Origin: Oribacterium sp. oral taxon 102
Lineage (GTDB): Bacteria > Bacillota > Clostridia > Lachnospirales > Lachnospiraceae
Reading direction: 5' to 3'
DNA: 64,000 bases
Assembly (NCBI RefSeq): GCF_013394775.1
Contig: NZ_JABXYT010000001.1
Location: 2,182,001-2,246,000, forward strand
Position 1 is the stretch's first letter. Every line of letters starts with the position of its first letter. The notes below the pieces were generated by a model. That model did not search any database and was not told the origin of the DNA. It saw only the letters and a list, made by a program, of their open reading frames with translations. The position numbers and the translations under genes were made by a program. Below, one piece after another: positions 9,004 through 44,150 of this stretch.

Positions 9004-9712
9004 GTTCCAGCCCCCTTCTGTAACGGTAATAGAATTTCCCCGTCTCACTCTCCACAAACGCGTCCCTGCTGCCGAAAAAGCTCGTCTGCCCGATATAGAG
9101 GATATGGCTCGCATAGCGGTATGCTGCCTCGATATCGTGAGAAATCATAATAATGCTGATCCCGTCCCTCTGATTCAGCTCCTGAATCAACCGATACATA
9201 TCTGCGGTAACCCTCGGATCCAGCCCCGCGACCGGCTCGTCCAGAAGCAGCAGCTTCTTCGTCGCACAGAGCGCCCGCGCGAGCAGCACTCTCTGCTGCT
9301 GCCCGCCGGACAGCTCTCTGTAGCAGCGGTCCCTGAGCGCCGAGACGCCGATCTTTTCCATGTTTCGCTCCGCTTCCTCCTTCTCCGCCCTGCTGTAGAA
9401 GGGACGCAGACCGCAGCTTCCCTGGAAGCCGGACAGCACGATCTCCCAGACCGAGGCAGGAAAATCCCTCTGTACCAGCGTCTGCTGCGGGAGATAGCCG
9501 ATCTCATTTTTCTTCAAACCGTCGCCCATGGACAGCTTCCCGCTGATCGGCGTCTGCAAGTGCAGAAGCGTCTTCATCAGTGTGCTTTTCCCTGCGCCGT
9601 TTTCTCCAATAATATAGAGGTAATCGCCTGACGAAAGCTGAAAGCTGATCGGAGCTGTTACCGTCTTCCCTTCATATCCGAAGCCCAGCTCCTCGCAAGT
9701 GATCAAAGCCAT
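8987..9712 (-). CDS. znuC: Zinc/manganese ABC transporter ATP-binding protein
   Basis: A 241-aa ABC ATPase. Walker A is GENGAGKST (about 36-44), the signature is LSGGQQQRVLLARAL and Walker B is LLLLDEPVAGLD, followed by the switch-region ISHD. It drives import through ZnuB. It sits 20 bp after znuA and overlaps znuB. Metal specificity (zinc) is inferred from the ZinT domain of the binding protein. Confidence 0.92.
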   Translation of the reverse strand: MALITCEELGFGYEGKTVTAPISFQLSSGDYLYIIGENGAGKSTLMKTLLHLQTPISGKLSMGDGLKKNEIGYLPQQTLVQRDFPASVWEIVLSGFQGSCGLRPFYSRAEKEEAERNMEKIGVSALRDRCYRELSGGQQQRVLLARALCATKKLLLLDEPVAGLDPRVTADMYRLIQELNQRDGISIIMISHDIEAAYRYASHILYIGQTSFFGSRDAFVESETGKFYYRYRRGLEHDAAF

Positions 9713-9731
9713 CTCCCCTGCCTCCTTACTC

Positions 9732-11318
9732 TTACCGGAGCGCCTCCTTCAGCACATCCAGATTCTTCTCCATAATCGACAGATAGGTCGCGCCGTTCTC
9801 CACATCCTTCGCTGTGGTCGACTGCATGGAATCCAGCGTCAGAACACTCTGGTTCTTCTCCTTCGTATTCTGGACGATCGTATCCGCGATTTTTCCGTCG
9901 GAGCTCTCGATCTTGAGCACGCTGTGCAGTCCCAGCTCGTCCATCTTCTTCGCGAGGAAGACAACGGTCTCGAAGCTCGCCTCTGTCTCGGCAGAGCAGC
10001 CTACAAATGCCGCATAGTAGTCCAGCCCGTAATCGTCCACCATATAGCGGAACGGGAAACGGTCGCCGAAAAGAACCGTCTTGTTCGGAGCTGCGTCCAC
10101 CGCGGACTGGTACTCCTGATCCAGCGCGGAAAGCTTCTCCGTATATGCCGCAGCATTTGCCATATAGCTGTCTCTGTGCGCGCCATCCAGCTCCGCGAGA
10201 TCCTCTGCGATCGCATTTACCAGCACCTTCGCATTCTTCAGAGAGAGCCAGACGTGCTCATCATACTCCTTTTCCTCCGCATGGTCATGCCCGATCAGCT
10301 CGTCGCAGACCTCCTCCGGGCTGAGCGCTGCCGGGAAGAAGGTCGGCCAGCGGTTTTCCGGATCCTCGATTGCATCGAAGCTCTCATTGCTCATACGAAT
10401 GTGGAAGTGTTCCGCCTCTGCCGGCTCGATCATATGGTCGTTGATCTCGACATAAAGCGGCGCGCCGGATGCCTTGTCCGCCGCCTCGAAGCGGTACATC
10501 GCCGCCTTGGTGCCGGTAGACCAGTTCTGGATATAATAGCCCACATAGTTATAGTCCGACTCTACGGTCTTGCCCGCATTGTCCGTGAAGGCAATGTGCT
10601 TCCCGTCGATCCTGATTCTGCTGTATTCCGACTCGTAGCCCTTGGCATAGTAGTCCTTGTACTCTGCCGCCGTCATCTTGCCGGACTCCGCCTTATGCTC
10701 GAAGGCCTCGTCCAGTGCGCCGGACTGCAGCAGCGGATAGCCGGACTGCCACTCGCCGGCCCAATCCGAGAGCGCCCTGTCCTTTACCTCACTATCCTCA
10801 AAGGTAGAGACCTCCTTACTGTGGTCATGCTCGTGTCCGTGCTCATGCTCATCCTCGTCTGCCTGCATGCCTTCCTTCACTTCCTCTTCCTTGATGCTGT
10901 CTCCCAGCACCGAAAGAAGGTTAATGACCTTCCGGTTCGGGTTGCTGGACTCTGCCAGCGCGTCCTCTACCCAGCCATCCGACTCACCGCCGACATAGAG
11001 GAAGAGATCGCAGGATGCGATCTTCATAATGTCGTCCACGGTCGGCTGGTAGCTGTGAAGATCCACGCCATTGTTCAGGAGCAGCGTGAGCTCGGCATTC
11101 TTCGCATCCTCGCCGAGAATCTCTCTCACCCAATCGTACTCCGGGAAGATGGTGCTGACCACCTTCAGTTTCTTCCCTGTTTCTGCTTCCATGGCTGCTG
11201 TCGTGTTCTCTGCCGCCGTGCTGCTCGCCGCTGCCGCATTCTCCGCCTGCTTCCCGCAGCCGATCAGGCATGCCGCCATCATTGCCGCTGCAGCCAGTAC
11301 CGATACAAATTTTCTCAT
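9732..11318 (-). CDS. znuA: Zinc-binding lipoprotein: ZnuA/AdcA with a ZinT domain nested in the His-rich loop
   Basis: Extracytoplasmic zinc receptor, 528 aa instead of about 310. Residues 1-21 are a lipoprotein signal (LIGC, lipid on C21). The N-terminal ZnuA lobe runs about 50-150, with ligand H88 in VDLHSYQPT. A His/acid-rich loop DEDEHEHGHEHDH spans 154-166. Residues about 168-345 are a full ZinT/YodA domain with H295, H304 and H306, the same 9- and 2-residue spacing as the ZinT zinc triad. The ZnuA fold then resumes with EHVWLS (H355) and continues to the C-terminus (ESSDGKIADTIVQNT). In streptococcal AdcA the ZinT domain is C-terminal; here it is inserted in the middle. Start ATG at 11318. 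Confidence 0.9.
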   Translation of the reverse strand: MRKFVSVLAAAAMMAACLIGCGKQAENAAAASSTAAENTTAAMEAETGKKLKVVSTIFPEYDWVREILGEDAKNAELTLLLNNGVDLHSYQPTVDDIMKIASCDLFLYVGGESDGWVEDALAESSNPNRKVINLLSVLGDSIKEEEVKEGMQADEDEHEHGHEHDHSKEVSTFEDSEVKDRALSDWAGEWQSGYPLLQSGALDEAFEHKAESGKMTAAEYKDYYAKGYESEYSRIRIDGKHIAFTDNAGKTVESDYNYVGYYIQNWSTGTKAAMYRFEAADKASGAPLYVEINDHMIEPAEAEHFHIRMSNESFDAIEDPENRWPTFFPAALSPEEVCDELIGHDHAEEKEYDEHVWLSLKNAKVLVNAIAEDLAELDGAHRDSYMANAAAYTEKLSALDQEYQSAVDAAPNKTVLFGDRFPFRYMVDDYGLDYYAAFVGCSAETEASFETVVFLAKKMDELGLHSVLKIESSDGKIADTIVQNTKEKNQSVLTLDSMQSTTAKDVENGATYLSIMEKNLDVLKEALR

Positions 11319-25415: not shown

Positions 25416-25464
25416 AAAACATTAACATTGAGTGCTTACAATGCGGAAGTTCATATTTATACTC

Positions 25465-25640
25465 TTACCTTCCCCACGATCTTCAAAACGTGAGAAGTAC
25501 CTTCTAGATCTTGTGCTCCACGATGAGCAATTCAGGATATATAACAATATAATCTCCCGCAACCAATGTAATCTTACTCATTCTTCTAGGCACTTTCCAA
25601 AACATCACATCTTTTTTTCATCATATTCTTCCTCGTATAA
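25465..25640 (-). pseudogene. Stray copy of the 3' end of the YhcH-domain gene
   Basis: The minus strand reads DVMFWKVPRRMSKITLVAGDYIVIYPE, then after a one-base deletion AHRGAQDLEGTSHVLKIVGKV. This parallels residues 248-296 of the protein encoded at 30334-31230 (DVMFWDIPSRMSKTTLLAGD and AHRGARDLEETKHVLKIVGKV). A second indel lies in an A-run near 25615. It is a diverged relict of a paralogous gene, not a recent duplicate. Confidence 0.8.
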
Positions 25641-26066: not shown

Positions 26067-27116
26067 CTATTCAGAAAACATTTCCTGATATCTACGTTTC
26101 ATTTTTACCCCATACTTGATTTCAACTTTCGGAAGCTCTTCACCCAGCAACTGTTTGATTCTCAAATACGGCAAATTCATTCCTGCTTTTTTGAAAATTT
26201 TCATGGTGGCTGCAACTCTAGGATTCACCTCCATTAAAACAGGATGTCCATTTTCATCTGCCTTAAAATCAAAATCTGCGTTCCCATCTATGCCAAGAGC
26301 CTCACAAACAGCTTTTGCAATTTCGATTGCTTCTTTATTTTCCTTGATTTCAGCCACTTGCGGAATGCTCGCCAAATTAACAGTACTTTCTCTATATCCA
26401 GCGTATATAACCTTTCCGTTGTCACCAATAATATCAACAGACCCTTCTACACCAGGTAAGTATTCCATAGCCATCATTTCTGGCATACTATTCTTTTCTC
26501 TTAATGTAGAAAGTAATTCTTCCATTGTGGTATACATGGAATTGGGCTTTTCACCAAACAAAATATCAAATCTTGATACATCTGATTTAATAATCCTTAT
26601 ACCTCTCGATCCTGATAAGTTTGTTGCTTTAACACATACCGATTTTTCCGGATATCCGCAATACTTGCAAGCTTCTATTAAATCATCTGCGCATCTCACT
26701 AGAGCAAACTTAGGTACTGGAAAATTATTTTCCTTTAAAAAAGAATAAAAGCGATATTTATCCGTGGCAATCTCAATGCTCTTTCTATTAGATAATGACA
26801 CTTTTGTGTCTATTGCATCAAATTTCTCTTTGTTTTCTAACAACTTTAAAAGCTCATTAGACATTCCAGGAATCAGAACATCGACTTTTTCTTTCTCACA
26901 AATCTCTAGTAATGAATCTATGTATCCAGGTTCAATAGCTTTGGGTGTAACATACAGCTTATCAATAAGAGGAATCATAGTTTCGTCATACGCCATATCC
27001 GCTCCTATGACGCGAATATTTCTTTCACCATTGTCTTTTAAGCAGTCAATAAATGCAGGCGTATATATCGCTCCACACGCAGTATATAACACCGTGATAT
27101 CTCTCAACTTTTCCAT
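26067..27116 (-). CDS. ATP-grasp carboxylate ligase-like protein
   Basis: About 349 aa of the carbamoyl-phosphate-synthase-like ATP-grasp fold. The N-terminal pre-ATP-grasp region has TACGAIYTPAFIDCLK and DVLIPGMSNELLKLL. The nucleotide-binding lysine is in SVCVKATNLSGSRGIRI, and the metal/ATP site is ALGIDGNADFDFKADENGHPVLMEVNPRVA. Such proteins ligate a carboxylate to an amine or similar nucleophile; substrate unknown. The start follows the decarboxylase stop with overlap (a GTG at 27122 or ATG at 27116; ATG preferred). It is last gene of the polysaccharide locus, next to insertion-sequence debris. Confidence 0.82.
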   Translation of the reverse strand: MEKLRDITVLYTACGAIYTPAFIDCLKDNGERNIRVIGADMAYDETMIPLIDKLYVTPKAIEPGYIDSLLEICEKEKVDVLIPGMSNELLKLLENKEKFDAIDTKVSLSNRKSIEIATDKYRFYSFLKENNFPVPKFALVRCADDLIEACKYCGYPEKSVCVKATNLSGSRGIRIIKSDVSRFDILFGEKPNSMYTTMEELLSTLREKNSMPEMMAMEYLPGVEGSVDIIGDNGKVIYAGYRESTVNLASIPQVAEIKENKEAIEIAKAVCEALGIDGNADFDFKADENGHPVLMEVNPRVAATMKIFKKAGMNLPYLRIKQLLGEELPKVEIKYGVKMKRRYQEMFSE

Positions 27117-27118
27117 AA

Positions 27119-28348
27119 TCACAACACATAAGTATCAAGTATATAATCAAAGGATTCCTTCTCTTTGATTAATTCGAGACTTTCTCCTTCCATAGAAATC
27201 ATAGCGCAATTAGGTAATATGAATGGTGGCTTGTCAACATTTGAATAACCGCCAACATTTCCAAAAATAATATTATCTCCTGTGCCTAATGTTCCGTTAT
27301 AGCCTATATACATCTTATCGTGTTCTAGACAAGTATATCCTACAAATTCACCATCGACAATTTGTTCTTGATTTTTGTTATTATGGATAACATTAATTGG
27401 AAGTTTCTTTAAATAGCTAATTTCGCCCAGATTATGTTTTGAGCAATCTAACACTACAAAATCTTTTCCTCTGATGTGCTTTATACTCGACACAGTAGCA
27501 ATAAAATCAATATAATGATTGATTAATGTTGTGCCCGGTTCAGTAAAGAGTATAGGCTTGTTATCATATGTATAGTCCTTATAATGCTCATTTATAACCA
27601 TGCCAATCGCCTGTGCATAGTCCAAATACTTTGGTAGATCCTTTCCAAATTGAATAGCAAGTTCATCATCCATTTCTCCAAACATGCCACTTCCTAGATC
27701 GATATACTTTAATTTCTTTCCATCAAAATACTTATCTATAATCTTCAGAGCTTCCTTTATCCTGTTTGTCCACGCCATAACAGTTCTCGACTGGCCTACA
27801 TGTATATGTATACCTTGTACGTCAAGATTATCTGCAGTTTGAATCAATCCTAACGCTTTTTCAAAATCTCCACTTGTTACATCAATTCCAAAACGTGAAA
27901 CAAAGCTTTGCCCAATATCAACATTTAATCTCAACCCAATTTTGATATTGATTTTAGAGTTCTGTTTTGCCAAGTCAACTATTCTAGTTAATTCATCCAA
28001 ATTATCCACATTAAGCATGCCTCCATTCAGAAGCATTTCGTTTCCTAATTTCCCCTTAATTGGACCATTATAAATAATATGGTCATCTTCATATCCAACT
28101 TTCTTCGCTATGTAATATTCCATGTCGGATACCACCTCTGCGTACCCGCCTAGTTCCTTTACTAATTTACAAATATACGGAGCATAATTCGTCTTATATG
28201 AATAAGATAACTCATATTTTTCGTAATTAGTTTTCATAGCACTAAAAAAAGCTCTATAATTTTCAATGAAAGCCCTCTTATCAAACACATATATAGGACT
28301 TCCGTATAACTGTAAGGCATTATTGATAGTCTGTTTATTATTAATCAT
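27119..28348 (-). CDS. PLP-dependent amino-acid decarboxylase, LysA/DAP-decarboxylase-like
   Basis: A 409-aa fold-type III PLP enzyme. The Schiff-base Lys is in LSYSYKTNYAPYI (about residue 52), the phosphate/PLP barrel motif is GIHIHVGQSRT, and EPGTTLINHY is the family's EPG motif. The C-terminal Cys/substrate region is GYTCLEHDKMYIGYNG. Its AT-rich context inside a polysaccharide locus, next to an ATP-grasp ligase it overlaps, argues against housekeeping lysine synthesis. It more likely makes or acts on an amino-acid-derived decoration (inference). Confidence 0.85.
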   Translation of the reverse strand: MINNKQTINNALQLYGSPIYVFDKRAFIENYRAFFSAMKTNYEKYELSYSYKTNYAPYICKLVKELGGYAEVVSDMEYYIAKKVGYEDDHIIYNGPIKGKLGNEMLLNGGMLNVDNLDELTRIVDLAKQNSKINIKIGLRLNVDIGQSFVSRFGIDVTSGDFEKALGLIQTADNLDVQGIHIHVGQSRTVMAWTNRIKEALKIIDKYFDGKKLKYIDLGSGMFGEMDDELAIQFGKDLPKYLDYAQAIGMVINEHYKDYTYDNKPILFTEPGTTLINHYIDFIATVSSIKHIRGKDFVVLDCSKHNLGEISYLKKLPINVIHNNKNQEQIVDGEFVGYTCLEHDKMYIGYNGTLGTGDNIIFGNVGGYSNVDKPPFILPNCAMISMEGESLELIKEKESFDYILDTYVL

Positions 28349-28381
28349 TGTGCTCTCCTATCTGCTGTCCTCTTTACCTCT

Positions 28382-29095
28382 CTATATCTTCACAAACACC
28401 ACTTCCGGCTCATTATTGATTCTCGGCATTATTTCCGTCCCGGCAATACCACGGCTTACAATAAGTTTTTTATCGTGTATTCCACTTGTGTACTTAGGAA
28501 ACAATCCCTGCCCAGGAGCGTATAAGCCACGACCAAGAATTCTAACCTGCCCACCATGAGCATGACCTGAAACAATCAAATCTATTTTTCTGTTTTTCAA
28601 GTGCGGCTCATAGTATTCTGGATGATGAGATAGTAGAATTTTATATCCATCTAATTTCTCAAACTCATCTATAAACTCCACATCCGGCACCTGACTGATC
28701 TTCTTATCATGATAATTGCGTCCCGATGAAAGTCCTCCAATATATAAATCTCCTGCTTTCACATAACGATTCTCTACTACAACAGCATCGGATTTATAAA
28801 GCATCTTAATTTCGTCAGCGGTAAGCCGCTTCTCATGATTTCCTAAAGAGAAATACGTGGGTGCTATTGTACTTATCCGGTTCAGAAGCCCGACACCATC
28901 ATTTACAAATCTCTCATGATCTCTCGCCTTTTCAATAGCAGCACCATCTACAAGGTCACCAGGAATTAAAATCAGATCAGTTTTATTCTTCTCTATAATC
29001 GTCAGAAACTCAGTAACTCTGCTATTATGGATGTCAGCTAATACCGCCAAGACCATCCCATATTCCTTTCCAAGTTCATACCAAGTTTCCACCAT
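28382..29095 (-). CDS. Metallophosphoesterase, YaeI-like
   Basis: A 237-aa calcineurin-type phosphoesterase with the full motif set: LADIHNS, GDLVDG, LGNHEK, LSHHPEYY and VSGHAHGGQVR (the last ending in the usual GLYAPGQGLFPKYTSG). YaeI relatives have an N-terminal membrane helix; this one has none, so it is probably cytosolic. It may dephosphorylate an intermediate of the locus or be a passenger. Start ATG at 29095 follows AAGGCGA, 12 bp after the PIG-L stop. Confidence 0.88.
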   Translation of the reverse strand: MVETWYELGKEYGMVLAVLADIHNSRVTEFLTIIEKNKTDLILIPGDLVDGAAIEKARDHERFVNDGVGLLNRISTIAPTYFSLGNHEKRLTADEIKMLYKSDAVVVENRYVKAGDLYIGGLSSGRNYHDKKISQVPDVEFIDEFEKLDGYKILLSHHPEYYEPHLKNRKIDLIVSGHAHGGQVRILGRGLYAPGQGLFPKYTSGIHDKKLIVSRGIAGTEIMPRINNEPEVVFVKI

Positions 29096-29107
29096 TGTTA
29101 ATTCGCC

Positions 29108-29779
29108 TTATCTTCCAATCAGCTTAGTGCCTTCGCTAAAGTCCATCTCAATTCTTAATACTTCAAATGCTTCTGCAAACTTCTTTCCAATTTCATATCC
29201 TCTGAAACCGCATCTACATCTTACACCTTCAACCCAATCTTCACCAGCGAACTTATTGTACTCAGACTTGTGCTCTCTTAAAGAATTAAGCTTCTTTTCC
29301 AACGTCTGCTCAATATCAACATAAAGATCCGGTTTAAATGCAACATAAGATCTTCCCGACGGTGTGATAGGCTCATAGAAGAATACCGTATTTCTTCTTC
29401 TCGCTGCTGCGATTGTCGCATTAGACACGCCTGCATGAGCCTGATGAGTATCAAATGGATGATGTGTAAAGATAACATCCGGATTATAATCGGTAATGCA
29501 CACATCAATGGCATTTACAACATCAGAATGCCATGGAATATCTTTTGTAGGGAAGTCCAGAATCTCGATATCATGAACGCCAAGAACATGCAAAGCATTA
29601 GTTCCTTCCTTGACTGCCACATCATTGCCTCTCTGAACAACACCATTAATGTTGGTGTATCCTGATTTACTCATAATGAGCACCTTAACTTGGTGTCCAT
29701 TCTCAATTGCCTTTGCAAGAGTACCTCCACAAGCAATCTCAATATCATCCAAATGTGCTCCAACTGCTAAAATTTTCAT
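29108..29779 (-). CDS. PIG-L (LmbE) family deacetylase
   Basis: A 223-aa zinc-dependent de-N-acetylase-like enzyme. The AHLDDIEIACGG motif (residues 8-19) supplies the Asp/Asp/His site. FTHHPFDTHQAHAGVSNATI and VAFKPDLYVDIEQTLEKKLNSLREHKSEY follow as in sugar deacetylases of surface-glycan loci. It most likely removes an N-acyl group from a sugar precursor made by the neighbouring genes. Confidence 0.9.
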   Translation of the reverse strand: MKILAVGAHLDDIEIACGGTLAKAIENGHQVKVLIMSKSGYTNINGVVQRGNDVAVKEGTNALHVLGVHDIEILDFPTKDIPWHSDVVNAIDVCITDYNPDVIFTHHPFDTHQAHAGVSNATIAAARRRNTVFFYEPITPSGRSYVAFKPDLYVDIEQTLEKKLNSLREHKSEYNKFAGEDWVEGVRCRCGFRGYEIGKKFAEAFEVLRIEMDFSEGTKLIGR

Positions 29780-29849
29780 TTTATTATTTCCTTTCCAATA
29801 GTTGTTTTAAATATGTTGTTTTTTACCAAATTGTTCAGCTGACAATGTA

Positions 29850-30331
29850 ATAATCGATATCAAGTATAAACTCTGTCTTCTGTCTGCATGAGATATAGAA
29901 ATAGATTAGCAAATTCAGGATATTCCATTTTCAAAGTTTCAAAGCTTGTCCGAAAACAAGCTATATTTGAGCCCGGTCCATTTGTCCATTCTTTGAATAA
30001 GCCAAACTTAGTCTATCCACTAATTTCTCATTCTGATATTCTTTATATACACTTTCCAAGATATAAATTCGATTTTTCAAAGGAAGCATACTCAAAAATG
30101 TATAAATATTTTCCTTGTCAAATTTATGCTCATCTTGCAAGAAATACCTAAAAAATCTATTCTACAATATGTATCGCCTTGCCTATAATATCCTGCAAGT
30201 CATGATCACTTACTTTTCCACTGAAATGAGAGCTCTCTCCACCAATTTTATAAATATCCTGAATATCACCGGCTGCCTCTTCGCTGTATTTTTCCTTTAT
30301 AATCTTTTGTTTTCTTCCCCAATTGCTAGCA
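29850..30331 (-). pseudogene. Decayed coding remnant, family not recognised
   Basis: This 480-bp stretch has no intact gene but shows protein-like text in three minus-strand segments, in order. First EKYSEEAAGDIQDIYKIGGESSHFSG..., in frame after the stop of the HAD-YhcH gene. Then FLQDEHKFDKENIYTFLSMLPLKNR.... Last GLFKEWTNGPGSNIACFRTSFETLKMEYPEFANLFLYLMQTED, to a stop. Segments are separated by stops and a frameshift. I do not recognise the family. Confidence 0.4.
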
Positions 30332-30333
30332 CT

Positions 30334-31230
30334 CTATATTCTAACTTTACCCACAATCTTCAGTACATGCTTTGTTTCTTCTAAATCCCGTGCTCCACGA
30401 TGAGCGGTTTCTGGATAAAGAACTATGCAATCTCCAGCAAGCAATGTGGTTTTGCTCATTCTCGAAGGTATATCCCAGAACATTACATCCTTCTCCTCGT
30501 CATAATCTTCTTTTAGGGAAAGTCTAGATATATCAACAAAATCCATACCCTCCTCACCAAAAACTACAAGCTGAATATCTATATATTTTCTGTGTGACTC
30601 GAGTTTGCACTGCTCTGCTGTTTTTGTATCATAGCTTTGAATGCTGTAATAGAATTCGTTATCCACATCTACTCTTTTGCCAGCATCTGTTTCCGATACC
30701 CTAAGTTCCTTTAAATATCTAACGGCTTTTTCAACTCTGCTCTGAATCTCAGCTTCATCGCTTCTATCAGAAACAAGCCACTCAGCAAAATCTCTAAGAG
30801 CGCCTTCACCTGCTTTATTTGCACAGACATAATCGGCAACGGCCTTGACTTCTCTTACAGCATCGGCTGGGCAAGCCACTATGCCACCTGCTTCTTTTAT
30901 TGGGTTCATACACTTCAAATCAAGAGTATCATCGCCAAAATAAGCACAGCTTCCAAGTCCATCCTCTCCTACTATTTCTTTTAAAGTAGTAAGTTTATCA
31001 AGCTTTCCCTGGTATACTTCTTTAATTCCTAATTCATCACATCTGTGTTGAACAATCGAACTGTTTCTCGCTGTAATAATAACTGGTGTGATATCTCTTG
31101 GTTTTAAAATATAGTTTATTACCATACCGTCCTTAATGGAGAAAGCCTTCATAGCCTCTCCATCAGGACCCATATATATTTTGCCGTCGGTGAGTGTTCC
31201 ATCGACATCCATAATTAAATACTTAACCAT
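30334..31230 (-). CDS. KdsC-type HAD phosphatase fused to a YhcH/NanQ anomerase-like domain
   Basis: A 298-aa two-domain protein. Residues 1-155 are an HAD phosphatase of the KdsC (Kdo-8-phosphate phosphatase) class: D8 and D10 in MDVDGTLTDG, T53 in IITARNSS, K77/K79 region, GDDTLDL at 99-105. Residues about 165-298 are a YhcH/YjgK/YiaL domain with ESHRKYIDIQ (211-220) and H277/H288. YhcH (NanQ) is known as a sialate anomerase. The fusion therefore suggests one polypeptide that dephosphorylates an ulosonic acid phosphate and interconverts its anomers before CMP activation. It has a GGAGGT ribosome site and lies 30 bp after the ThDP gene. Confidence 0.9.
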   Translation of the reverse strand: MVKYLIMDVDGTLTDGKIYMGPDGEAMKAFSIKDGMVINYILKPRDITPVIITARNSSIVQHRCDELGIKEVYQGKLDKLTTLKEIVGEDGLGSCAYFGDDTLDLKCMNPIKEAGGIVACPADAVREVKAVADYVCANKAGEGALRDFAEWLVSDRSDEAEIQSRVEKAVRYLKELRVSETDAGKRVDVDNEFYYSIQSYDTKTAEQCKLESHRKYIDIQLVVFGEEGMDFVDISRLSLKEDYDEEKDVMFWDIPSRMSKTTLLAGDCIVLYPETAHRGARDLEETKHVLKIVGKVRI

Positions 31231-31260
31231 CTTTAACCTCCAATGCCGATGCCTACATTT

Positions 31261-32860
31261 TTACGCACCGATTAAAGCATTTACTTTCTCTAACATTTCT
31301 TCATCAAGATCCGGTTTGATTGTACAGCTCTCCCACTTAATCTTAGGGATAAGGAGAGTTCCTGGAGTAATCATAATGTTCAATAAACAAGGCTCATCAT
31401 CCATTAACCAATCTTTATACTCATCTAGTTTCTCATAGCTACTAACTTCAGCAGCCTTAAGGCCGTATGCATTCGCAACTTTTACAAAATCCGGAACTGT
31501 ATACCCACTTTCTGCTGTCGTTATGCAATATCTATCATTATAAGAACCGTGCTGAATCTCACTTATCTTACCGAGTTCCTTATTGTTGACCACAAGAACC
31601 TTAATTGGCAGTTTTTCTCTTCTTACAGTCTCAAGTTCCTGGATATTCATCTGTAAGCCACCGTCACCAGTGATGCAGTATGCTATGCCATTTCCCGTGC
31701 TGATTGATGAACCAATAGCGTATGGAAGACCAACTCCCATTGCCCCGTAGCTTCCGCCAATAACAATTCTTCCTTCGGTTCCCTTGAATGAAAGTGACTG
31801 TGCAGCCCAACAAACTGTCTGTCCAATGTCAATTGTAACAATTGGATTTTTCGGAAGCAACTCGGAAATCTTCTTCATCAGCTTATTGCCTTCAGTGTCA
31901 TCATAATCATCAAGAAGATTCTTTGCTTCTATACAGTTATTCCACCAGCCACTATAGTCTGGAATTTCTTCGGCTATCAACTGCTCCATAAACGCCTTAG
32001 CATCCATATTATAGTCTTCTTCATCATCCTTTACTACCCGTGCCAATTCATATTGATCAACGTCACAACGAATCAATTTAGCCTTTGGAGCAAACAATTC
32101 CTTTTTGTGACCAATTTGTCTTAATCCAAGACGAGCACCAACGGAGATGACTAGGTCGCATTCATTCAACATCATATTAGCAACTCGATTGCCATAGGTA
32201 CCGATGAATCCAATTCTATATTCATCCTGAATCATATCCACAGTATTCATTGTGGCAAGAACAGGAATGTGTGTTTTTTTAATAAATTCATAAATAAGCT
32301 CAGATATACCAGCTGCTCTTGCGCCATTACCTACAATCAATATTGGTTTTCTGGATGTCATATGGAAAATCAATGACCACACCTCCCTTTCTTCCTGTAG
32401 TAGCTAATTTATAAGCTCTTGAAATAATATCCGGAAATGTCTCCGCAAGGTTTGGAGATACAGAATACTTTGTTATATGCTTCGTCATAGATACGATTTC
32501 CATCTCCTGGAAACCATTTTGACGAACGCCCGAAAAACCTCTTTGCTCATTAGTAGGAACGTTGCCGCTTATCCCCATAAGAGGTACACCATCAAACCAA
32601 GCATCAGCTAGACCTCCGAACGCATTCACAGCACCCGGACCGGAAGTCGTAAAATAAACTCCAAGCTTACCACTTGTTCTAGCATAGCCATCAGCCGCAT
32701 AAGCGCACCCCTGCTCGTTATAACAAACGTGTACTTTTATTTCATCTTTTCTAGCGTATAAGGCATCCATAAAAGGTACAATGTAGCCCCCAGAATAGCC
32801 AAATACGTCAGTGACACCATTTTTAATGAGGTAATCAACTAAGTATTCCGAACAATTCAT
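31261..32860 (-). pseudogene. ThDP-dependent acetolactate-synthase-like enzyme, frameshifted between domains
   Basis: Two overlapping minus-strand ORFs. 32327-32860 (177 aa) is the PYR domain with catalytic Glu49 in CYNEQGCAYAADG and VIDFPYDIQ at its end. 31261-32382 (373 aa) is the central domain (KPILIVGNGARAAG) plus the PP domain with the ThDP motif GDGGLQMNIQ...NN. The interdomain linker (about 30-40 residues in IlvB-type enzymes) is missing and the frame changes at the join. This indicates a small deletion with frameshift, or, less likely, a split enzyme with coupled translation. Substrate unknown. The neighbouring aldolase and CMP synthetase suggest a role in building an unusual sugar acid. 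Confidence 0.75.
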
Positions 32861-32887
32861 AAAATCCCAACCTTCCTAAGTAATCTA

Positions 32888-33572
32888 TCAAACAAGAGAA
32901 AATTTGCCGCACATACTTGTGAATTTGTTGCCAGCTATCTTTTTTGTTTTAGAACTAAAGCTTAAAGAGAAACCAATAAGAACCATAATTAAAATCAATC
33001 TATCGGTTTTAATGTCAAGTGCGGTCAATACAATTGGAGAAATCATGCATACAGACATCAGCGCTGTAAGAAGTTCTTTTCTATCATCAAGCTGCTCTTC
33101 AAAAAACAGTCCCAAGCAATAGACCAAAACTCCAAGTGCCAGGCCTCCAATCGCTCTAAAATAGCTTATTGGTGCAAAAACAGGATATCTTCCTAAAACG
33201 AAATACCACAAAAACATAAGCCAAAGAAAGCGTGCCATACACTTTAATCGGAGTTTTTCAAACAAATATCGCCAAGACCGGCAAGATTGGCAGCATTGTA
33301 GCTAAGTGCCACAGAATGCCAAGCATCAACAACTGCGTTGCTGTGCCCCCCGATCAGTTTGGCCTTCTCAAAATAGCATACAGTAAAATATCCACTCAAA
33401 GCGAAAAACGCTTCAACAAATATTCTTCCATACATGAACGGGTATTGTTTTATTTCATACAAATGGTAAGAATAGAAAATCATAATGATAACAGCCATCA
33501 GCAAGCGATATATATATCTATCAAACCATTCCTGACATGTTCTTTCTCTACGTTCGCTGTATTCATTGCCAT
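32888..33572 (-). pseudogene. Broken membrane acyltransferase (acyltransferase-3-like)
   Basis: Reading frames in order are MAMNTANVEKEHVRNGLIDIY, then after a two-base slip RLLMAVIIMIFYSYHLYEI and GRIFVEAFFALSGYFTVCYF. After further frame changes and an internal loss come hydrophobic segments of 32888-33265. The HLYEI...FFALSGYF start is typical of membrane O-acyltransferases of surface glycans, which are about 340-380 aa; only about 228 codons remain. The ATG overlaps the aldolase stop (TGATG). Confidence 0.65.
33508..33517. repeat. (AT)5 dinucleotide tract at a frameshift
   Basis: Five AT units inside the 5' part of the broken acyltransferase gene; four units would keep the frame from IDIY into RLLMAVII. 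Confidence 0.6.
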
Positions 33573-34609
33573 CACCACTTTACACAATTTTTATATTTGT
33601 CATAGATTCCATCTAAAACTGAAAAATCTGTTTTCGAGTAACCTGTTCCATATCTGGTACGCTGCTGTGGAGACAATTCCTCAACAACATCAAACATTTC
33701 GTTAGCTGTACAATTATGAGCTTTCTTTAAATGATAAACATTATCTACATGAGAATGCTTTGTCCCACACACATACATCGGAAGATCATATCCATAATCA
33801 ACATCACCTAAAATTGGCGTGATATATGTATCAATCGTCTTAAGCAGTGTTTGAAGGTCATAATGACCACCGCAGTTTTTATTAATGTAATCAGCAAGAA
33901 GCTCCGTCTTTGCGTTGCCTGCTCCTCTTCCCATTCCGAAAAGAGATCCATCAACAATGATATCTCTGTCACACTCTTCGGCTAGTTCAATCATTCTCTC
34001 AGCCAAGGCGCAAGAAAGGCCAAGGTTATCGTGTGAATGAAGACCAATCTTAATACCCTTATCAAGCAGACTATCAACTTGTTTAAAAATATGTACGAGG
34101 TCAGTCATGTACATAGTGCCAAAAGTATCCACAATAGAGAATGATGCAGGCTTAACCTTATTGACCTTTTCAATTAATGCGGCACGAGCCTCATCTGTAT
34201 AGCTGATAGAATCCATTGGATTAAACTGAACAAGATATCCTTTTTCCTTAGCTCCCTTGCAAAATTCAATGGAAGCATCAATCTCATGCTGTGCAAAGGA
34301 AATTCTAAGCCACTTAAATGACTTGCCATCATAGTCATCAAGATTTTCTAATGAATATCTACTGTTATCACAGAAACCAAGGAATTGTGTATGTTTTCTA
34401 TCTTCTGGAAGATACTTTCTTGCATCTACTGAATTTGCATAAACTAAAGTTTCGCCAGTTACATTTGTCTGTAAAAAACCAGTCTCTGCAAAATCAATAC
34501 CTGCATCAGCAAGTCCTTTCATAATTCCTTTTACAAATTCAGGATTAGAGTTCTTATTAAAAAGATATCCTCCGTCTCGAATTGTACAATCTGTTATCTG
34601 TACGCTCAT
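33572..34609 (-). CDS. HMG-CoA-lyase-type (DRE-TIM) aldolase
   Basis: A 345-aa metal-dependent aldolase of the HMGL-like family, closest in layout to 4-hydroxy-2-oxovalerate aldolases. It has the catalytic/metal start ITDCTIRDGGY (residues 5-15), FAETGFLQTN, metal ligands in IGLHSHDNLGLS and DGSLFGMGRGAGNAKTELL. Family enzymes join pyruvate (or acetyl-CoA) to an aldehyde or oxo acid, or the reverse. Its start overlaps the stop of the CMP-synthetase-like gene by 4 bp, so the two are probably made together. In this context it is the candidate carbon-carbon bond former for a 2-oxo-3-deoxy sugar acid. Confidence 0.87.
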   Translation of the reverse strand: MSVQITDCTIRDGGYLFNKNSNPEFVKGIMKGLADAGIDFAETGFLQTNVTGETLVYANSVDARKYLPEDRKHTQFLGFCDNSRYSLENLDDYDGKSFKWLRISFAQHEIDASIEFCKGAKEKGYLVQFNPMDSISYTDEARAALIEKVNKVKPASFSIVDTFGTMYMTDLVHIFKQVDSLLDKGIKIGLHSHDNLGLSCALAERMIELAEECDRDIIVDGSLFGMGRGAGNAKTELLADYINKNCGGHYDLQTLLKTIDTYITPILGDVDYGYDLPMYVCGTKHSHVDNVYHLKKAHNCTANEMFDVVEELSPQQRTRYGTGYSKTDFSVLDGIYDKYKNCVKW

Positions 34610-35259
34610 TTTTTCAACATCTCCTTATAAATCGCATTACATATTTCGAAGTCTTCAGGATAGTCGATATCCATAGCTTCAATCTTATCTACTTCCTTGA
34701 TGAACGGATGAGAACCAAGTCTTCTGTTATGCTTTATAAAGGACTCTTTAGTAAAGACATAGGCAATAGAAGTTTCTCCATAAATCAAAGGAAGATCCTG
34801 TGTCCGAGGGAAATGGTCTGGATCAAAGTTGATTGGCTTTCCATTCTCCCACATAAATGTTCTTAATGCCTCTGCACAAAAAGCCGAATCATATTCTCCA
34901 CTCGCAACCTTATCTACGCATTCTTCAATTGTGGAAACTTTAGCAAAAGGCGAAGTGGTGTGTGCATTCACATAAATATCTGCATCAACGGTATTCATGA
35001 ATTCTTTGATGAAGTCGTTGGCATTGATACCATCACCATCGAGGTACTCCGGACGTTTGAGATATTTAACGCCAGGTAAAACATATGGGATAACCGCATC
35101 ATCTGAGCAATAAATATAGACCTCATCAATATTCTTAGCTTCTAAGCAAGCCTTCTGAATAAAATGCATTAATGGTGTTCCATCAAAGAATGGTTTTATG
35201 TTCTTTCCCGGAACTCTCTTCGAACCCAATTTAATCGGAATTAAAGCAACTGTTTTCAT
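34606..35259 (-). CDS. CMP-sugar (acylneuraminate/Kdo-type) cytidylyltransferase
   Basis: A 217-aa nucleotidyltransferase of the NeuA family, activating a 2-keto sugar acid with CTP. The N-terminal ALIPIKLGSKRVPGKNIKPF is the nucleotide-binding signature, and GDGINANDFIKEFM, YVNAHTTSPF and DIDYPEDFEICNAIY at the C-terminus are all typical. No nonulosonate synthase (NeuB) or NeuC is in the window. The actual sugar is therefore unlikely to be plain sialic acid. An AGGTGGGG site precedes the ATG. Confidence 0.88.
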   Translation of the reverse strand: MKTVALIPIKLGSKRVPGKNIKPFFDGTPLMHFIQKACLEAKNIDEVYIYCSDDAVIPYVLPGVKYLKRPEYLDGDGINANDFIKEFMNTVDADIYVNAHTTSPFAKVSTIEECVDKVASGEYDSAFCAEALRTFMWENGKPINFDPDHFPRTQDLPLIYGETSIAYVFTKESFIKHNRRLGSHPFIKEVDKIEAMDIDYPEDFEICNAIYKEMLKK

Positions 35260-35316
35260 TTTATATCCCCACCTTTTATAAAAAATAAATTCAATGTATT
35301 TAATTCTTGTTAATAA

Positions 35317-36726
35317 CTACGTGGCTTTATTTTTTTCAGTTTTTATCAATTTAAAGACTGCGCTAAAAACACTTATAATTCCGTTTTTATTCAGCCATAT
35401 AATCAATAAAATAATCGGTATCTGAATTAAAACATTTATATCAAAAATTTCAACCGTGCATTGTAAAACAAGTAAGCCCCATATCAAAACTAAATTTTTT
35501 TCATCACCAATTACTCCATGTGATATTTTGCTCTTTCTAATTATATAAATAACATAACTTGATGCAGCTGTTGCTATTGTTGCTCCTTGAACTCCCAATA
35601 TATAAATTAGACCAACATTCAATATCAAATTAAGCACCGCCCCTACCATAGTAGAGAGAGATAAAATTTTGGTGTTTTTCTGTGCTGCAAGAATTGATCC
35701 TAGCATGCCTGAAGCATTGTTAAACACACAGCCGAGTAAAAGGAATGGTACATATTGCCACGCTATGAAAAAATCTTTTGCATATAAAATTAATGCTAGT
35801 GGTTTTAAAAGAACAATTAAAGCAGAGCATGCTAAACACATCAATACGTTCACAAAAGAAAAAGCTTTTCCATAGAATGCTGCTGAATCAGCTTTATCAT
35901 ATTCTTTTATTGCTGAAATCTGCCAAGCCTGAAGAAATATATTCTGTAAAGTCCCTATAATTTGTGGAATTTTATAGGAAACAGATAAAATTCCACTTGC
36001 CGCAACACCACACATTCCAGCCACAACATATTTGTCAGAAGTATTATTAACTAACCACCCAACAACTGAAGCAATCAGCGGCATAGAGTAAATAAGCATT
36101 TCCTTCTGTATTTTCCCACTACTGCCAAATGAAACCAGACGCGCAATGTCTAGTCTAAAAGCAAGATATATTGCAGGAACTAGCAATGCCAAAGTATTGG
36201 CATAAAAGAATCCCTCCAACCCTGCTTTAACAACAATCAGAAAGAAAACATTACATAGTATCACCGAAACAGTGCCAATTAATCCGGCAATTCCTATATC
36301 GAAAACTTTTTCATTTCCTTGTGCAAGTTGATTTAAATATTGATAAATGGAATACGCAATATAGTATAAACAAATTATCCAACATAATTTCTCTATTATT
36401 TCACCACAAATTTTTGCTGCAATGAAAACGCCAACTATCGATAATGCCAAATTTATTATGATAAATTTTAGTCCAATACTTGCCACCTTAGAGACATCAT
36501 AATTTTTATCTAGAGAAAATCGCATTACCGCATCACAAATATTTAAGGTCAATATTGGAAAAACAAAAGACACCGTAGTAACAACTAAATCATATGTTCC
36601 ATACTCTTCAGTTGTTAAAATATTTGTATAAAGTGGAACTAACAAAAAAACAAGTATTTTGGACGCAAAATTACTAATCGTTAGTAATCCTAAATTTTTT
36701 ATTAAGTACTTTAACTTATTCTCCAT
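35317..36726 (-). CDS. wzx: Polysaccharide repeat-unit flippase (Wzx-like)
   Basis: A 469-aa MATE/oligosaccharide-flippase-type membrane protein with about 12-14 hydrophobic helices. It begins LIKNLGLLTISNFASKILVFLLVPLYTNILTTEEYGTYDLV, the normal start of this family. It should move the lipid-linked repeat unit across the membrane for Wzy. Confidence 0.88.
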   Translation of the reverse strand: MENKLKYLIKNLGLLTISNFASKILVFLLVPLYTNILTTEEYGTYDLVVTTVSFVFPILTLNICDAVMRFSLDKNYDVSKVASIGLKFIIINLALSIVGVFIAAKICGEIIEKLCWIICLYYIAYSIYQYLNQLAQGNEKVFDIGIAGLIGTVSVILCNVFFLIVVKAGLEGFFYANTLALLVPAIYLAFRLDIARLVSFGSSGKIQKEMLIYSMPLIASVVGWLVNNTSDKYVVAGMCGVAASGILSVSYKIPQIIGTLQNIFLQAWQISAIKEYDKADSAAFYGKAFSFVNVLMCLACSALIVLLKPLALILYAKDFFIAWQYVPFLLLGCVFNNASGMLGSILAAQKNTKILSLSTMVGAVLNLILNVGLIYILGVQGATIATAASSYVIYIIRKSKISHGVIGDEKNLVLIWGLLVLQCTVEIFDINVLIQIPIILLIIWLNKNGIISVFSAVFKLIKTEKNKAT

Positions 36727-36745
36727 TTATCATCATCTCATACGT

Positions 36746-37831
36746 TTATATAATCTTTTCCATTTCTCGTTCAGATTCTATCACTAAAACATTATGACAA
36801 TATCGCCTGCCAAAATCACCATTTATTATGGTTTGGATAGTATTAACAGTCTCGCAAGCGCTCTTATTGGCACCAAGATTACATAACGGGTATATATAGC
36901 AAATTTTTGGAGAATTACTTTGTGTCAAGCTAATTGAAAGCGCACTGCATGAATACCCAGTTATTAACACATGTTTAGAAAAATCCTTCCCCAATTGAAT
37001 AGCTTCCCACGGAATACCTGAATTTTCATCCACATTGAGTCCTGCTCTTATAAAACGTTCTGGATTATCTCTTGGATGTGCTTTAACTATCAAATTTTCA
37101 TTTCCAACAAATTTGGCTACTTTTAGAACAGCATCTATTTCCCCTATAGAGCCTCCGCCTTCAAAATCATATACACTGGTTAAACAGATATATTTAAATT
37201 TTTCATAATCGGTACTTTTAGTATCATTCTCAAATAAATCATTCAAGATATTAGCCATCTCGCTGCTATCTGAAATCCGCGGTATTTGAACAGCATTCAA
37301 CTTTCCGTTATAAAGAGTTGGATAATAGCAATAAAAATTACTCGCAGAACATTCTAAAGGACTGAGGTTTAAAAGGGATCTAATTTTAAAAGCCAACCTA
37401 GATTTAACAGTTTTAATATTCCAATCATCATAAGATACAATACCTTCTTCATATCTTGAGGCAATAATTTTAGGATTAATTTTATACAATTTTGCAAACA
37501 GCGTATAAATTTCGTCTGTTTGAGAATAGTAAATTATTTCATCAACAGATTCATTAGGAAAATCCCTCCAGATATCATCGTTCCCATTTATATAATGCAA
37601 CACCAGCTTACATTTATTGGCTATAGATTTATTCTCAACATTTTTAGTTTTGATGTAATATGTTTCGTCAAACAATCCCATGCCACGTATTTTAGGATAT
37701 ATCTTTGCCAAACCATTTGTATGATCAGAAATCGCAACACAAAACTTATCATCCGAGAATAATGTCAATTTCAGTTGTATGCATTCAATTAGCTGTGAAT
37801 ATGTGTTACATATAAATAATCTGGTACTCAA
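36746..37831 (-). CDS. Sialyltransferase-like (GT52-type) glycosyltransferase
   Basis: A 361-aa protein with the two motifs of bacterial CMP-donor transferases. The D/E-D/E-G motif is seen as RYEEGIVSY (about 144-152) and the HP motif as LIVKAHPRDNP (about 245-255), followed by a Ser-rich GYSCSALSISL. The N-terminus RLFICNTYSQLIECI is also typical of GT52. A TTG at 37831 preceded by GAGGG is the likely start; it overlaps the stop of the previous gene. It is the natural user of the CMP-sugar made by the product of 34606-35259. Confidence 0.75.
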   Translation of the reverse strand: MSTRLFICNTYSQLIECIQLKLTLFSDDKFCVAISDHTNGLAKIYPKIRGMGLFDETYYIKTKNVENKSIANKCKLVLHYINGNDDIWRDFPNESVDEIIYYSQTDEIYTLFAKLYKINPKIIASRYEEGIVSYDDWNIKTVKSRLAFKIRSLLNLSPLECSASNFYCYYPTLYNGKLNAVQIPRISDSSEMANILNDLFENDTKSTDYEKFKYICLTSVYDFEGGGSIGEIDAVLKVAKFVGNENLIVKAHPRDNPERFIRAGLNVDENSGIPWEAIQLGKDFSKHVLITGYSCSALSISLTQSNSPKICYIYPLCNLGANKSACETVNTIQTIINGDFGRRYCHNVLVIESEREMEKII

Positions 37832-42728: not shown

Positions 42729-44074
42729 TCACTTTTCCCATCCATAGCAATTTATTTCAATTTGTCTTGACATATCCTCGACCTGCATAATTGTCTGTTT
42801 TTCTACAATTATACGATTCATCTCGCGAAGCTTATCCACTGTAATATCTTGCAAAATCATAGCCAACTTCGAAGCATCCATATCTTCAATAATAATGCCG
42901 GCGCCATTTACCAAAATATCTTTAGCACCTACGTTCCCACTTATAATCACAGGAATTCCATAACTAAGTGCTTCTAAAACCGTAAATCCAAAGGTCTCAT
43001 ACCAGATACTTGGTGCTACAAGGATATCTGTATCTTCAAAGATTTTCTCTAACTCTGCATACGCATATCTACTATGTGTTTTTATATACGGCGACATCTC
43101 TATAGGAGTAAAATGAACATCTAAGCAAAAATTCTGTTTTTTACTCCATAATTCATCAAGTGCCGCCTGGAGAAGAAAAAACCCTTTGCCCCCCCCTGTG
43201 GTCCTAAGTAGCGAATTCTAATAAAATCGTTTGAATACTCTTTTATTCTTTTATTATCTTTTATACCTGAATGCATAACTGGAATCACGCAATTATTGGG
43301 AAGCTCAAACACAGATTCATACACTTTTTTGGTTATACTACTGTTGTAATGTATTACATCCATCATTTTTAAGAGCGAATAATAGTAGTTTCGCAGTTTC
43401 TCGTAATCCTCTGTTAGTCCAATTACTCCTGTGTCATTATCCACTTTAGACTCACTCAAGAAATTATCTCTATGGCTTTTTCTTAGTCTTTTAATAATTT
43501 CCACATCTTTTAAATATCGATAAATAGGAGATTGAAGGATTTTTATTTTAACTAAACTTAACGCTGTGGTATTACATACTCCGCAATACTCGTAGCTATT
43601 AACACAATCGCATATTTTTCCTTGTCGAAACATTGTAACCTTCGGGCAAATAGGGAAGAAATCGTGTGCCGTAAATATAAGGCGAATTTTCATCCGTTTT
43701 GCTGTTTCCAGAAAACTCCTATGAAGTCCCATCAGTGTATGGACATGAATAACATCCGGTTGAAATTCGCTCAATATTTTTTCATATATATTACTATTAA
43801 CATCCTTAGTGAATTCATCAATGTTAATAATCCCCTCATCAAACGAAATTGGCAATGGATTCACCAGTTCTAAGCTGAGAATACTTTGACCGTCAAAATC
43901 AACCTTACTTGTTCTTATCGATGTTTTTTTGCTTATAAACCCCATTTGCCCAGGCCAAAGTAACGCTATCGAATGTCCTTCTTTTGCCTGTTGAACCATA
44001 AGGTCGACGCAAAATTTAGTTAATCCGCCTGACCTATATGGTGGGAATCCTAATGAATAATGCATCACCTTCAT
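42729..44074 (-). pseudogene. Glycosyltransferase family 4, frameshifted at a G8 tract
   Basis: Part 1 (43121-44074) is the N-terminal half (SLGFPPYRSGGLTKFCVDLM, then IHVHTLMGLHRSFLE and a Cys-rich segment). It runs into RIRYLGPQGG at a run of eight Gs and ends early. Part 2 (42729-43097) is the donor domain (LEKIFEDTDILVAPSIWYETFGFTVLEALSYGIPVI). Seven Gs would join them without a gap as GPQGGKGFFLLQAALDELW. The gene is thus off by a single base at a homopolymer: switched off by slippage, a true mutation, or a sequencing error. Start ATG 44074 follows GGGAGT. Confidence 0.85.
43189..43196. repeat. Homopolymer tract C8 (G8 on coding strand)
   Basis: Eight Cs on the plus strand at the frameshift point of the GT4 gene; a seven-base tract restores the full reading frame. 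Confidence 0.85.
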
Positions 44075-44150
44075 AATGTTCAACTCCCGTATTGTTTATC
44101 TCCAAATCTCCGCATATCTACCACTGATATATTCCCGGCTATATGCAGTC

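Follow-up and report, generated by a model that had tools for sequence, protein, structure and literature searches.

A set of genes in Oribacterium sp. oral taxon 102 encodes a cytidine monophosphate (CMP)-sugar synthetase, an aldolase, a thiamine diphosphate (ThDP) enzyme and a phosphatase joined to a putative sugar anomerase. The stretch of 64,000 nucleotides analysed here, G000:C1:2182001-2246000, is called the window; its source genome measures 2.53 Mb in 2 contigs and is 96% complete. This core and its neighbours all lie on the minus strand, at the left-hand side of a locus for a surface glycan. The first core gene (34606-35259) specifies a NeuA-like CMP-sugar synthetase of 217 residues (PF02348, 60 bits, over the cut-off), and it overlaps by 4 bp the gene of an HMGL/DRE-TIM aldolase of 345 residues (33572-34609; PF00682, 76 bits). 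The ThDP enzyme is spread over two pieces: piece 1 has the PYR domain (32327-32860, 177 residues; PF02776, 125 bits), and piece 2 has the TH3 and PP domains (31261-32373 when read from a TTG codon, in an open reading frame (ORF) that is open from 32382; PF00205, 89 bits, and PF02775, 114 bits), all three matches being over their cut-offs. The last core gene (30334-31230) joins a KdsC-type haloacid dehalogenase (HAD) phosphatase domain (30760-31230; TIGR01670, 132 bits, over the cut-off) to a YhcH/NanQ-type anomerase domain (30334-30750; PF04074, 102 bits against a cut-off of 26.5). A preliminary description of this DNA had placed NeuA, aldolase, ThDP enzyme, KdsC-YhcH, a PIG-L deacetylase and a CMP-donor-type transferase together on one strand. 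Family matches bear this out, TIGR01670 and PF04074 agree with the fusion that it described, and the 4-bp overlap (33572-34609 / 34606-35259) is as it had stated.

Is this set peculiar to one genome? The combination of NeuA, aldolase, two-piece ThDP enzyme and KdsC-type gene, termed form A, is represented by eight loci, namely the window and L002-L008; the latter came from one genome-contig scan and belong to Clostridia, Lachnospiraceae, Spirochaetales and Bacteroidales. NeuA lies immediately ahead of the aldolase gene, overlapping or abutting it, in all six loci with an intact 5' side (window, L002, L003, L004, L007, L008). Linkage of the two genes, whose absence elsewhere was to have spoken against a common pathway, is thus kept, and the proposed co-occurrence of the four cores is seen as a recurring order in Lachnospiraceae/Clostridia and Bacteroidales relatives. 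L006 ends at a contig end, with its 5' side cut off. A KdsC-type sequence follows the ThDP genes in 8/8 loci, directly or, in L007, past one acyltransferase gene; it is open in seven and is taken to be interrupted in L006 because the open frame begins only ~71 codons in. KdsC is fused to YhcH in 6/8 loci and is shortened at its end in L005. That locus (L005:10001-13412, from a Spirochaetales bin) is decayed: the aldolase has lost its first 25 residues, there is no NeuA match and a stop stands at codon 38 of ThDP piece 2. L007 carries two NeuA-like genes in tandem ahead of the aldolase (8646-9984). Only in the window is the aldolase parted from ThDP piece 1, by ~700 bp holding two short, overlapping hydrophobic ORFs (32888-33265 and 33244-33504, minus strand), which have no Pfam match and are possibly remnants of a membrane acyltransferase.

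Form A is rare in the genomes sampled, being found in 1/116 relatives, 1/398 genomes of the phylum and 1/397 of the family, each time the source genome. Close aldolases at E<=1e-80 were seen in the source genome only among the 397 family genomes, and the 398 phylum genomes gave, at E<=1e-30, its own aldolase and two distant ones. A Butyrivibrio proteoclasticus protein (P0070) is a member of the aldolase family, with 82% identity. Protein-database homologues at E<=1e-20 number at least 2865 for the aldolase, at least 2438 for ThDP piece 2 and 2087 for KdsC-YhcH, with distant relatives beyond form A included; given these numbers, the core set is no isolated oddity. Residue and length counts below rest on 120 listed homologues per protein. 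Viral-contig scans with the aldolase and ThDP piece 1 gave no relatives, a PHROGs search with four proteins gave no matches, a plasmid search gave three records of at most 30% identity, and an E. coli search gave no match.

In the source genome only the NeuA gene matches CTP_transf_3 at E<=1e-10, and its product is closest in the PDB to PpNeuA (9t4z, E 5e-14), with CMP-NeuAc synthetase (1qwj) also matched. Which enzyme supplies its substrate? The profiles of the phosphoenolpyruvate (PEP)-dependent synthases NeuB (PF03102) and KdsA (TIGR01362) and of Epimerase_2 (PF02350; NeuC/WecB) each find nothing at E<=0.001 anywhere in the source genome, and match 9/14, 9/14 (four over the cut-off) and 11/14 control genomes, respectively. 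A tblastn search with nine synthase proteins from relatives (seven NeuB-type, two KdsA) gave no match at E<=1e-4 in the window and 22 loci, and both positive controls were found. The lack of NeuB, KdsA and NeuC that had been remarked on for the window therefore extends to the genome, with no neuB or kdsA found outside the window that might serve this NeuA.

The aldolase was modelled with AlphaFold from 23 sequences (pLDDT 88). In a Foldseek search with the model, the top matches were 4-hydroxy-2-oxovalerate aldolases, nearly over the full length (E 2e-17, TM 0.77-0.82); the first 12 rows hold 11 chains of four such enzymes and 3dxi. The next match is a homocitrate synthase (E 2e-12), with an E-value poorer by about four orders of magnitude. 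A role in acyl-CoA Claisen condensation, as in homocitrate or isopropylmalate synthase, was dropped as first choice on the strength of this Foldseek ranking. Catabolic 4-hydroxy-2-oxovalerate aldolases partner with an acyl-CoA-forming aldehyde dehydrogenase. Along almost the entire chain the predicted enzyme has the fold of the DmpG/AmnG type (TM ~0.78), and it shares the metal site: R11 and D12 correspond to DmpG R17 and D18, H191 and H193 to its HxH motif, and the four are kept in 118-120 of the 120 listed homologues. It is unlike them in having Tyr15 for DmpG His21, and no acyl-CoA-forming aldehyde dehydrogenase was noticed at this locus. Curated cut-offs are missed (TIGR03217, 74 against 286 bits; PRK08195, 81 against 229). 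By modelled fold and metal site the protein is aldolase-like, and proven membership of the 4-hydroxy-2-oxovalerate aldolase family is not claimed. Its best PDB sequence match (95 bits) is Bacteroides BVU_2661 (3dxi), an uncharacterised 'putative aldolase' that differs in that the structure is the N-terminal domain of a longer protein. Structure prediction had been put forward earlier as a check; it upheld the fold, and in the alignment with DmpG the H21 equivalent is a tyrosine.

The distribution of synthases and aldolases around CMP-synthetase genes was surveyed in 116 genomes of relatives, with 61 CTP_transf_3 genes (E<=1e-10), 47 NeuB places, three KdsA genes over the cut-off and 16 aldolase places (E<=1e-30). 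The neighbourhood limit of 12 kb was chosen by the author. NeuB places under 55 bits were left out as DAHP (3-deoxy-D-arabino-heptulosonate 7-phosphate)-synthase-like, because most coincide with weak TIGR01362 matches, and a NeuB fragment in genome G106, under the cut-off, was retained on account of the CMP gene next to it. Within the limit, 40 of the 61 genes have NeuB, two KdsA, six the aldolase family and 13 none, and no gene has both aldolase and PEP-dependent synthase. Such a synthase is nearby in 0/6 aldolase-linked and 42/55 other CMP genes (Fisher p 5e-4, with genes treated as independent, which they are not fully; 41/55 and p 7e-4 without the G106 fragment). Several of the 13 genes with none belong to short contigs or to genomes that carry NeuB at another site.

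Five of the six aldolase-linked CMP genes have distant aldolases of ~530 residues (L025-L029) beside KdsB- or NeuA-like genes. No ThDP gene was seen in these stretches of 10-20 kb. After the pair come KdsC in L028 and, in L029, a different HAD-like gene (names partly by reading). In the aldolase tree, built from 23 sequences, form A makes one clade (100/99), the other CMP-linked aldolases group as L027 with L029, L026 with L028, and L025, and the deepest forks are weak. The aldolase thus appears to have joined CMP genes in about four lineages, form A and three other tree groups. The aldolases of L024-L033 and L035 (~500-545 residues) carry a C-terminal part of ~190 residues, for which no Pfam match was found in the two aldolases searched whole (L010, L032); hhalign gives this part of the ~530-residue aldolases a weak likeness to MptE-like proteins (probability 10%). 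In L037 (6466-9666, minus strand) the aldolase is fused to a GT2 glycosyltransferase in a protein of 1066 residues. The L036 aldolase lies with guanosine diphosphate (GDP)-sugar genes, by the author's reading.

The KdsC-YhcH fusion retains D8 and D10 of the phosphatase domain, and PF04074 is present in the 120 listed homologues, at 94-100% query coverage. The YhcH domain scores over the cut-off of TIGR00022 and under that of the N-acetylneuraminate anomerase NF040884 (68 against 160 bits), so its substrate may differ. In excerpts of PMC8141875, E. coli YhcH is described as opening the ring forms of (anomerising) N-acetylneuraminic acid (Neu5Ac) and Kdn. A remnant of a second KdsC-YhcH 3' end is present at 25460-25617 (minus strand), as two fragments in two frames with 72% and 83% identity to residues 246-298.

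Also of interest is the candidate CMP-sugar transferase (36746-37831, minus strand), which is polysialyltransferase-like (PF07388, 31.2 bits against a cut-off of 23.3). It had been assigned as GT52-like with CMP-donor motifs. The E-E-G, H-P and S motifs, which we take to be those of CMP-donor transferases, are indeed visible in its alignment; the family is PF07388 instead, with no GT52 match reported in the Pfam search. Its fold model (pLDDT 49) is too poor for use. In the relatives the transferase varies. That of L008 is under the PF07388 cut-off, yet shares 27% identity with the window transferase over 373 residues, and that of L002 shares 24% (E 3e-13) and has no Pfam match. L003 and L004 have an MptE-like protein (PF01973, over the cut-off) immediately ahead of NeuA, and L007 has a GT99 N-domain match, under the cut-off, immediately ahead of its tandem NeuA genes; GT99 members are presumably transferases of 3-deoxy-D-manno-octulosonic acid (Kdo) and MptE-like (Maf) proteins presumably CMP-sugar transferases. 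Candidates for transfer are thus present in 6/6 intact loci, three of the matches being weak. Across the 116 genomes, a CMP-synthetase gene is found no more than 12 kb from 6/8 PF07388 matches over the cut-off and from 20/36 PF01973 matches.

What might the core produce? The reading held here, with confidence slightly better than even, is that its product is a 2-keto-acid (ulosonic-acid-like) sugar activated with CMP and formed without PEP, the aldolase replacing NeuB/KdsA. That replacement, already suggested in the preliminary description, is backed by the gene neighbourhoods of the relatives and by the match of the modelled fold to 4-hydroxy-2-oxovalerate aldolases. The reactions, substrates and product, all of which we infer, would be as follows. 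The metal-dependent aldolase would add pyruvate to the carbonyl of a phosphorylated sugar, giving the 2-oxo-4-hydroxy-acid end (C1-C4) that NeuB/KdsA would make. The ThDP enzyme, as a YerE- or acetohydroxyacid synthase (AHAS)-type carboligase, may use a 2-oxo acid as the source of an added acyl unit, building or branching the chain, before or after the aldolase. KdsC would take off the phosphate, YhcH would equilibrate open and ring forms, and NeuA would attach CMP. A locus-specific CMP-sugar transferase, here of PF07388 type and of other families in relatives, would put the sugar on a surface glycan.

Several points weigh against this pathway. The position of DmpG H21, which we take to be the catalytic base, is Tyr15 in the aldolase and a tyrosine in 120/120 listed homologues, which makes aldol chemistry less than certain. 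NeuA falls far under equivalog cut-offs (PseF, 77 against 206 bits), and YhcH is unfused in L007 and L008. With 13/61 CMP-synthetase genes lacking a synthase nearby, a missing NeuB is not rare. A nearby CMP gene is lacking at ten of the 16 aldolase places; nine of these ten have a ThDP gene (L024, L030-L035, L037, L038; by BLAST), and six have at least one gene of the cytidine diphosphate (CDP)-glucose pathway over its NCBIfam cut-off (L024, L030, L031, L032, L035, L037). The nearest aldolase outside form A is that of L024 (95/92), from a CDP/ThDP locus. The ThDP and CDP genes at the CMP-less places and the position of L024 speak for a logic like that of YerE over one like that of NeuB. Finally, the ThDP enzyme belongs to every form A locus, yet is unexplained. 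Its role is unproven, the supply or extension of the aldehyde suggested earlier being a guess, and the nearest precedent, by analogy, is carboligation of the YerE/ErwE type with 4-hydroxy-2-oxo acids, as presented in excerpts of PMC12247030. The parallel with such branched-sugar loci, like the conserved split of the ThDP enzyme discussed below, had been overlooked in the earlier reading.

Could the aldolase feed the ThDP enzyme rather than NeuA? The 4-hydroxy-2-oxo acid made by the aldolase, dephosphorylated by KdsC, would then be the ThDP donor, decarboxylated, with loss of C1 of the aldol product, and joined to a ketone or 2-oxo acid, with NeuA activating the branched product. This is considered rather unlikely, though a good deal is consistent with it. 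According to excerpts of PMC12247030, ErwE is assigned to erwiniose, which it forms by joining CDP-4-keto-3,6-dideoxyglucose to a hydroxy-functionalised 2-oxo acid; donors such as 4-hydroxy-2-oxobutanoate are favoured, the acceptor used in vitro is an analogue ketone, and these excerpts name no aldolase for the donor step. JanthE, a YerE-like enzyme whose structure (8rph) ranks first among the PDB matches of ThDP piece 2, takes 4-hydroxy-2-oxovalerate as donor with benzaldehyde, according to excerpts of PMC12188165. As far as these portions of the two papers go, such donor use lends weight to the notion that ThDP enzymes of glycan loci are supplied with pyruvate aldol products, on which this rival is founded. 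In L031 and L032 an aldolase gene is grouped with those of a HAD phosphatase, a ThDP enzyme and the CDP-glucose pathway, and the L024 aldolase, nearest to form A, has a CDP/ThDP setting. Against this route, the product would be no obvious 2-ulosonic acid for NeuA, nor an obvious substrate for YhcH, and the five distant aldolase-CMP-synthetase loci show no ThDP gene. The CDP-deoxy-keto-sugar proteins RfbF, RfbG and RfbH, taken from L032, lack a close counterpart in the eight form A loci: by tblastn RfbF finds nothing there, and RfbG/RfbH find only 24% (L008) and 27% (L007) identity, with a positive control at 61-68%. The core resembles the YerE/ErwE/JanthE systems of yersiniose and erwiniose, as these are portrayed in the same parts of PMC12247030, in having a ThDP carboligase of the same superfamily, PYR-TH3-PP with a ThDP motif, in a surface-glycan locus. 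It differs in CMP rather than CDP activation, in the presence of KdsC-YhcH and in the division of the ThDP enzyme.

The ThDP enzyme had been listed with no mention of a split, and it is not a single gene: two overlapping ORFs, PYR in one and TH3 with PP in the other, are separate in 8/8 loci. A TTG opening piece 2 lies inside piece 1 in the +1 frame, 8 nt past a GGNGG, and the overlap to the piece 1 stop is 47 nt, again in 8/8 loci. In the window the Shine-Dalgarno-like motif is GGAGG (32382-32386, minus strand), 8 nt ahead of the TTG, and in L004 and L007 this TTG is, by inspection, the sole ATG/GTG/TTG upstream of the first conserved motif. All 120 listed piece 2 homologues have 357-391 residues, though proteins of up to ~650 residues were eligible, and GDG and an AHAS-like Arg88 are kept in all of them. 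The uniform geometry, lengths and catalytic motifs point to an old split and no mutation; a frameshift mutation or an assembly error was ruled out by the identical split in 8/8 loci. The enzyme is probably made as two subunits, piece 2 being started by ribosomes that reach the embedded GGAGG-TTG; the constancy of GGNGG, 8-nt spacing and TTG favours such restart over frameshifting.

Piece 2 is closest in the PDB to 8rph (143.8 bits) and then to AHAS II 5ahk (140.9 bits), and piece 1 alone is closest to AHAS. When aligned with Arabidopsis AHAS, piece 1 ends at chain position 175 and piece 2 begins at 213; with 5ahk the positions are 196 and 229. Between the aligned parts there are 37 and 32 chain residues, respectively, against ~11 in the window, divided over two chains. 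Unsplit relatives (L034 and L038) retain the inter-domain linker. Like AHAS II-type large subunits, the enzyme has the same domain content, active-site motifs and Arg88, which aligns with the second Arg of the RFDDR motif, presumably the acceptor Arg of AHAS. Unlike them, it consists of two polypeptides with the linker mostly absent, and Ile276 and Lys272 occupy the places of AHAS Trp and Met, which we take to be acceptor-pocket residues. It is improbable that, instead of two subunits, the pair represents a gene in decay or programmed +1 frameshifting: the overlap in the +1 frame and the near loss of the usual linker would fit, but the like geometry in eight loci of several phyla, the similar length of the 120 listed homologues and the intact motifs do not, and decay is excluded for the family, although single copies such as L005 are decayed.

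With the two-piece enzyme in mind, the preferred aldolase-based pathway can be carried further, tentatively and with some doubt: a PEP-independent route for which an HMGL aldolase was recruited in about four lineages, and in which a heterodimeric carboligase from overlapping genes may here yield a C-branched or chain-extended CMP-keto-acid sugar. We know of no example of a C-branched CMP-activated keto-acid sugar or of such a ThDP enzyme. Least probable is that NeuA activates scavenged sialic acid or Kdo (scavenging is known in other bacteria) while aldolase, ThDP enzyme and KdsC serve another sugar of the same glycan, since the synthase-free 13/61 CMP genes and three NanA-family matches in the genome, all under the cut-off, are set against a NeuA that overlaps or abuts the aldolase in 6/6 intact loci, a KdsC that no scavenged sugar needs, and distant aldolases that pair independently with KdsB/NeuA.

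Around the core lie genes of more local distribution. A flippase-like membrane protein (Wzx; 35317-36726, minus strand), named from sequence appearance with no family search, sits between NeuA and the PF07388 transferase; it is non-core, and related ORFs are present in L003 and L008. Downstream of the core (26067-29779) are genes for a PIG-L deacetylase (29108-29779, minus strand; PF02585, 85 bits), a phosphoesterase, a pyridoxal phosphate (PLP)-dependent decarboxylase and an ATP-grasp protein. None of the four is matched at E<=1e-5 in the 3.6-21 kb covered at each of the seven related loci, and they are therefore regarded as locus-specific rather than core and were ruled out as pathway members; PIG-L had been counted in the set and is removed from it. 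The ATP-grasp and decarboxylase genes (26067-28348, minus strand) overlap by 4 bp and perhaps add an amino-acid-derived group to the glycan. Elsewhere in the window, a GT4-type glycosyltransferase is in two pieces (42729-43097 and 43121-44083, minus strand; PF13439 in the N part, PF00534 in the C part), either broken or an assembly error, and an IS110-family transposase domain (PF01548; 23742-24614, plus strand) marks the edge of the glycan locus.

How does the core compare with established CMP-ulosonic acid pathways? It shares with the NeuB/KdsA pathways (sialic, legionaminic and pseudaminic acid; Kdo) a NeuA-family synthetase, a KdsC-type phosphatase and candidate CMP-sugar transferases; it differs in that no PEP-dependent synthase or NeuC-type epimerase was found in the genome, an HMGL aldolase and a ThDP enzyme being present instead. 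In the open-access PMC literature, no paper was recognised as describing this gene set among the matches listed. NeuB and KdsA serve as markers by which pathways to Kdo and sialic-acid-like sugars are identified in genomes. If the proposed pathway is true, loci that use an aldolase in place of these synthases would be overlooked in genome surveys. It would also constitute a new, directly testable way to keto-acid sugars from pyruvate, would add a ThDP enzyme split between its PYR and TH3 domains, and would link the C-branched (YerE/ErwE) and CMP-sugar pathways.

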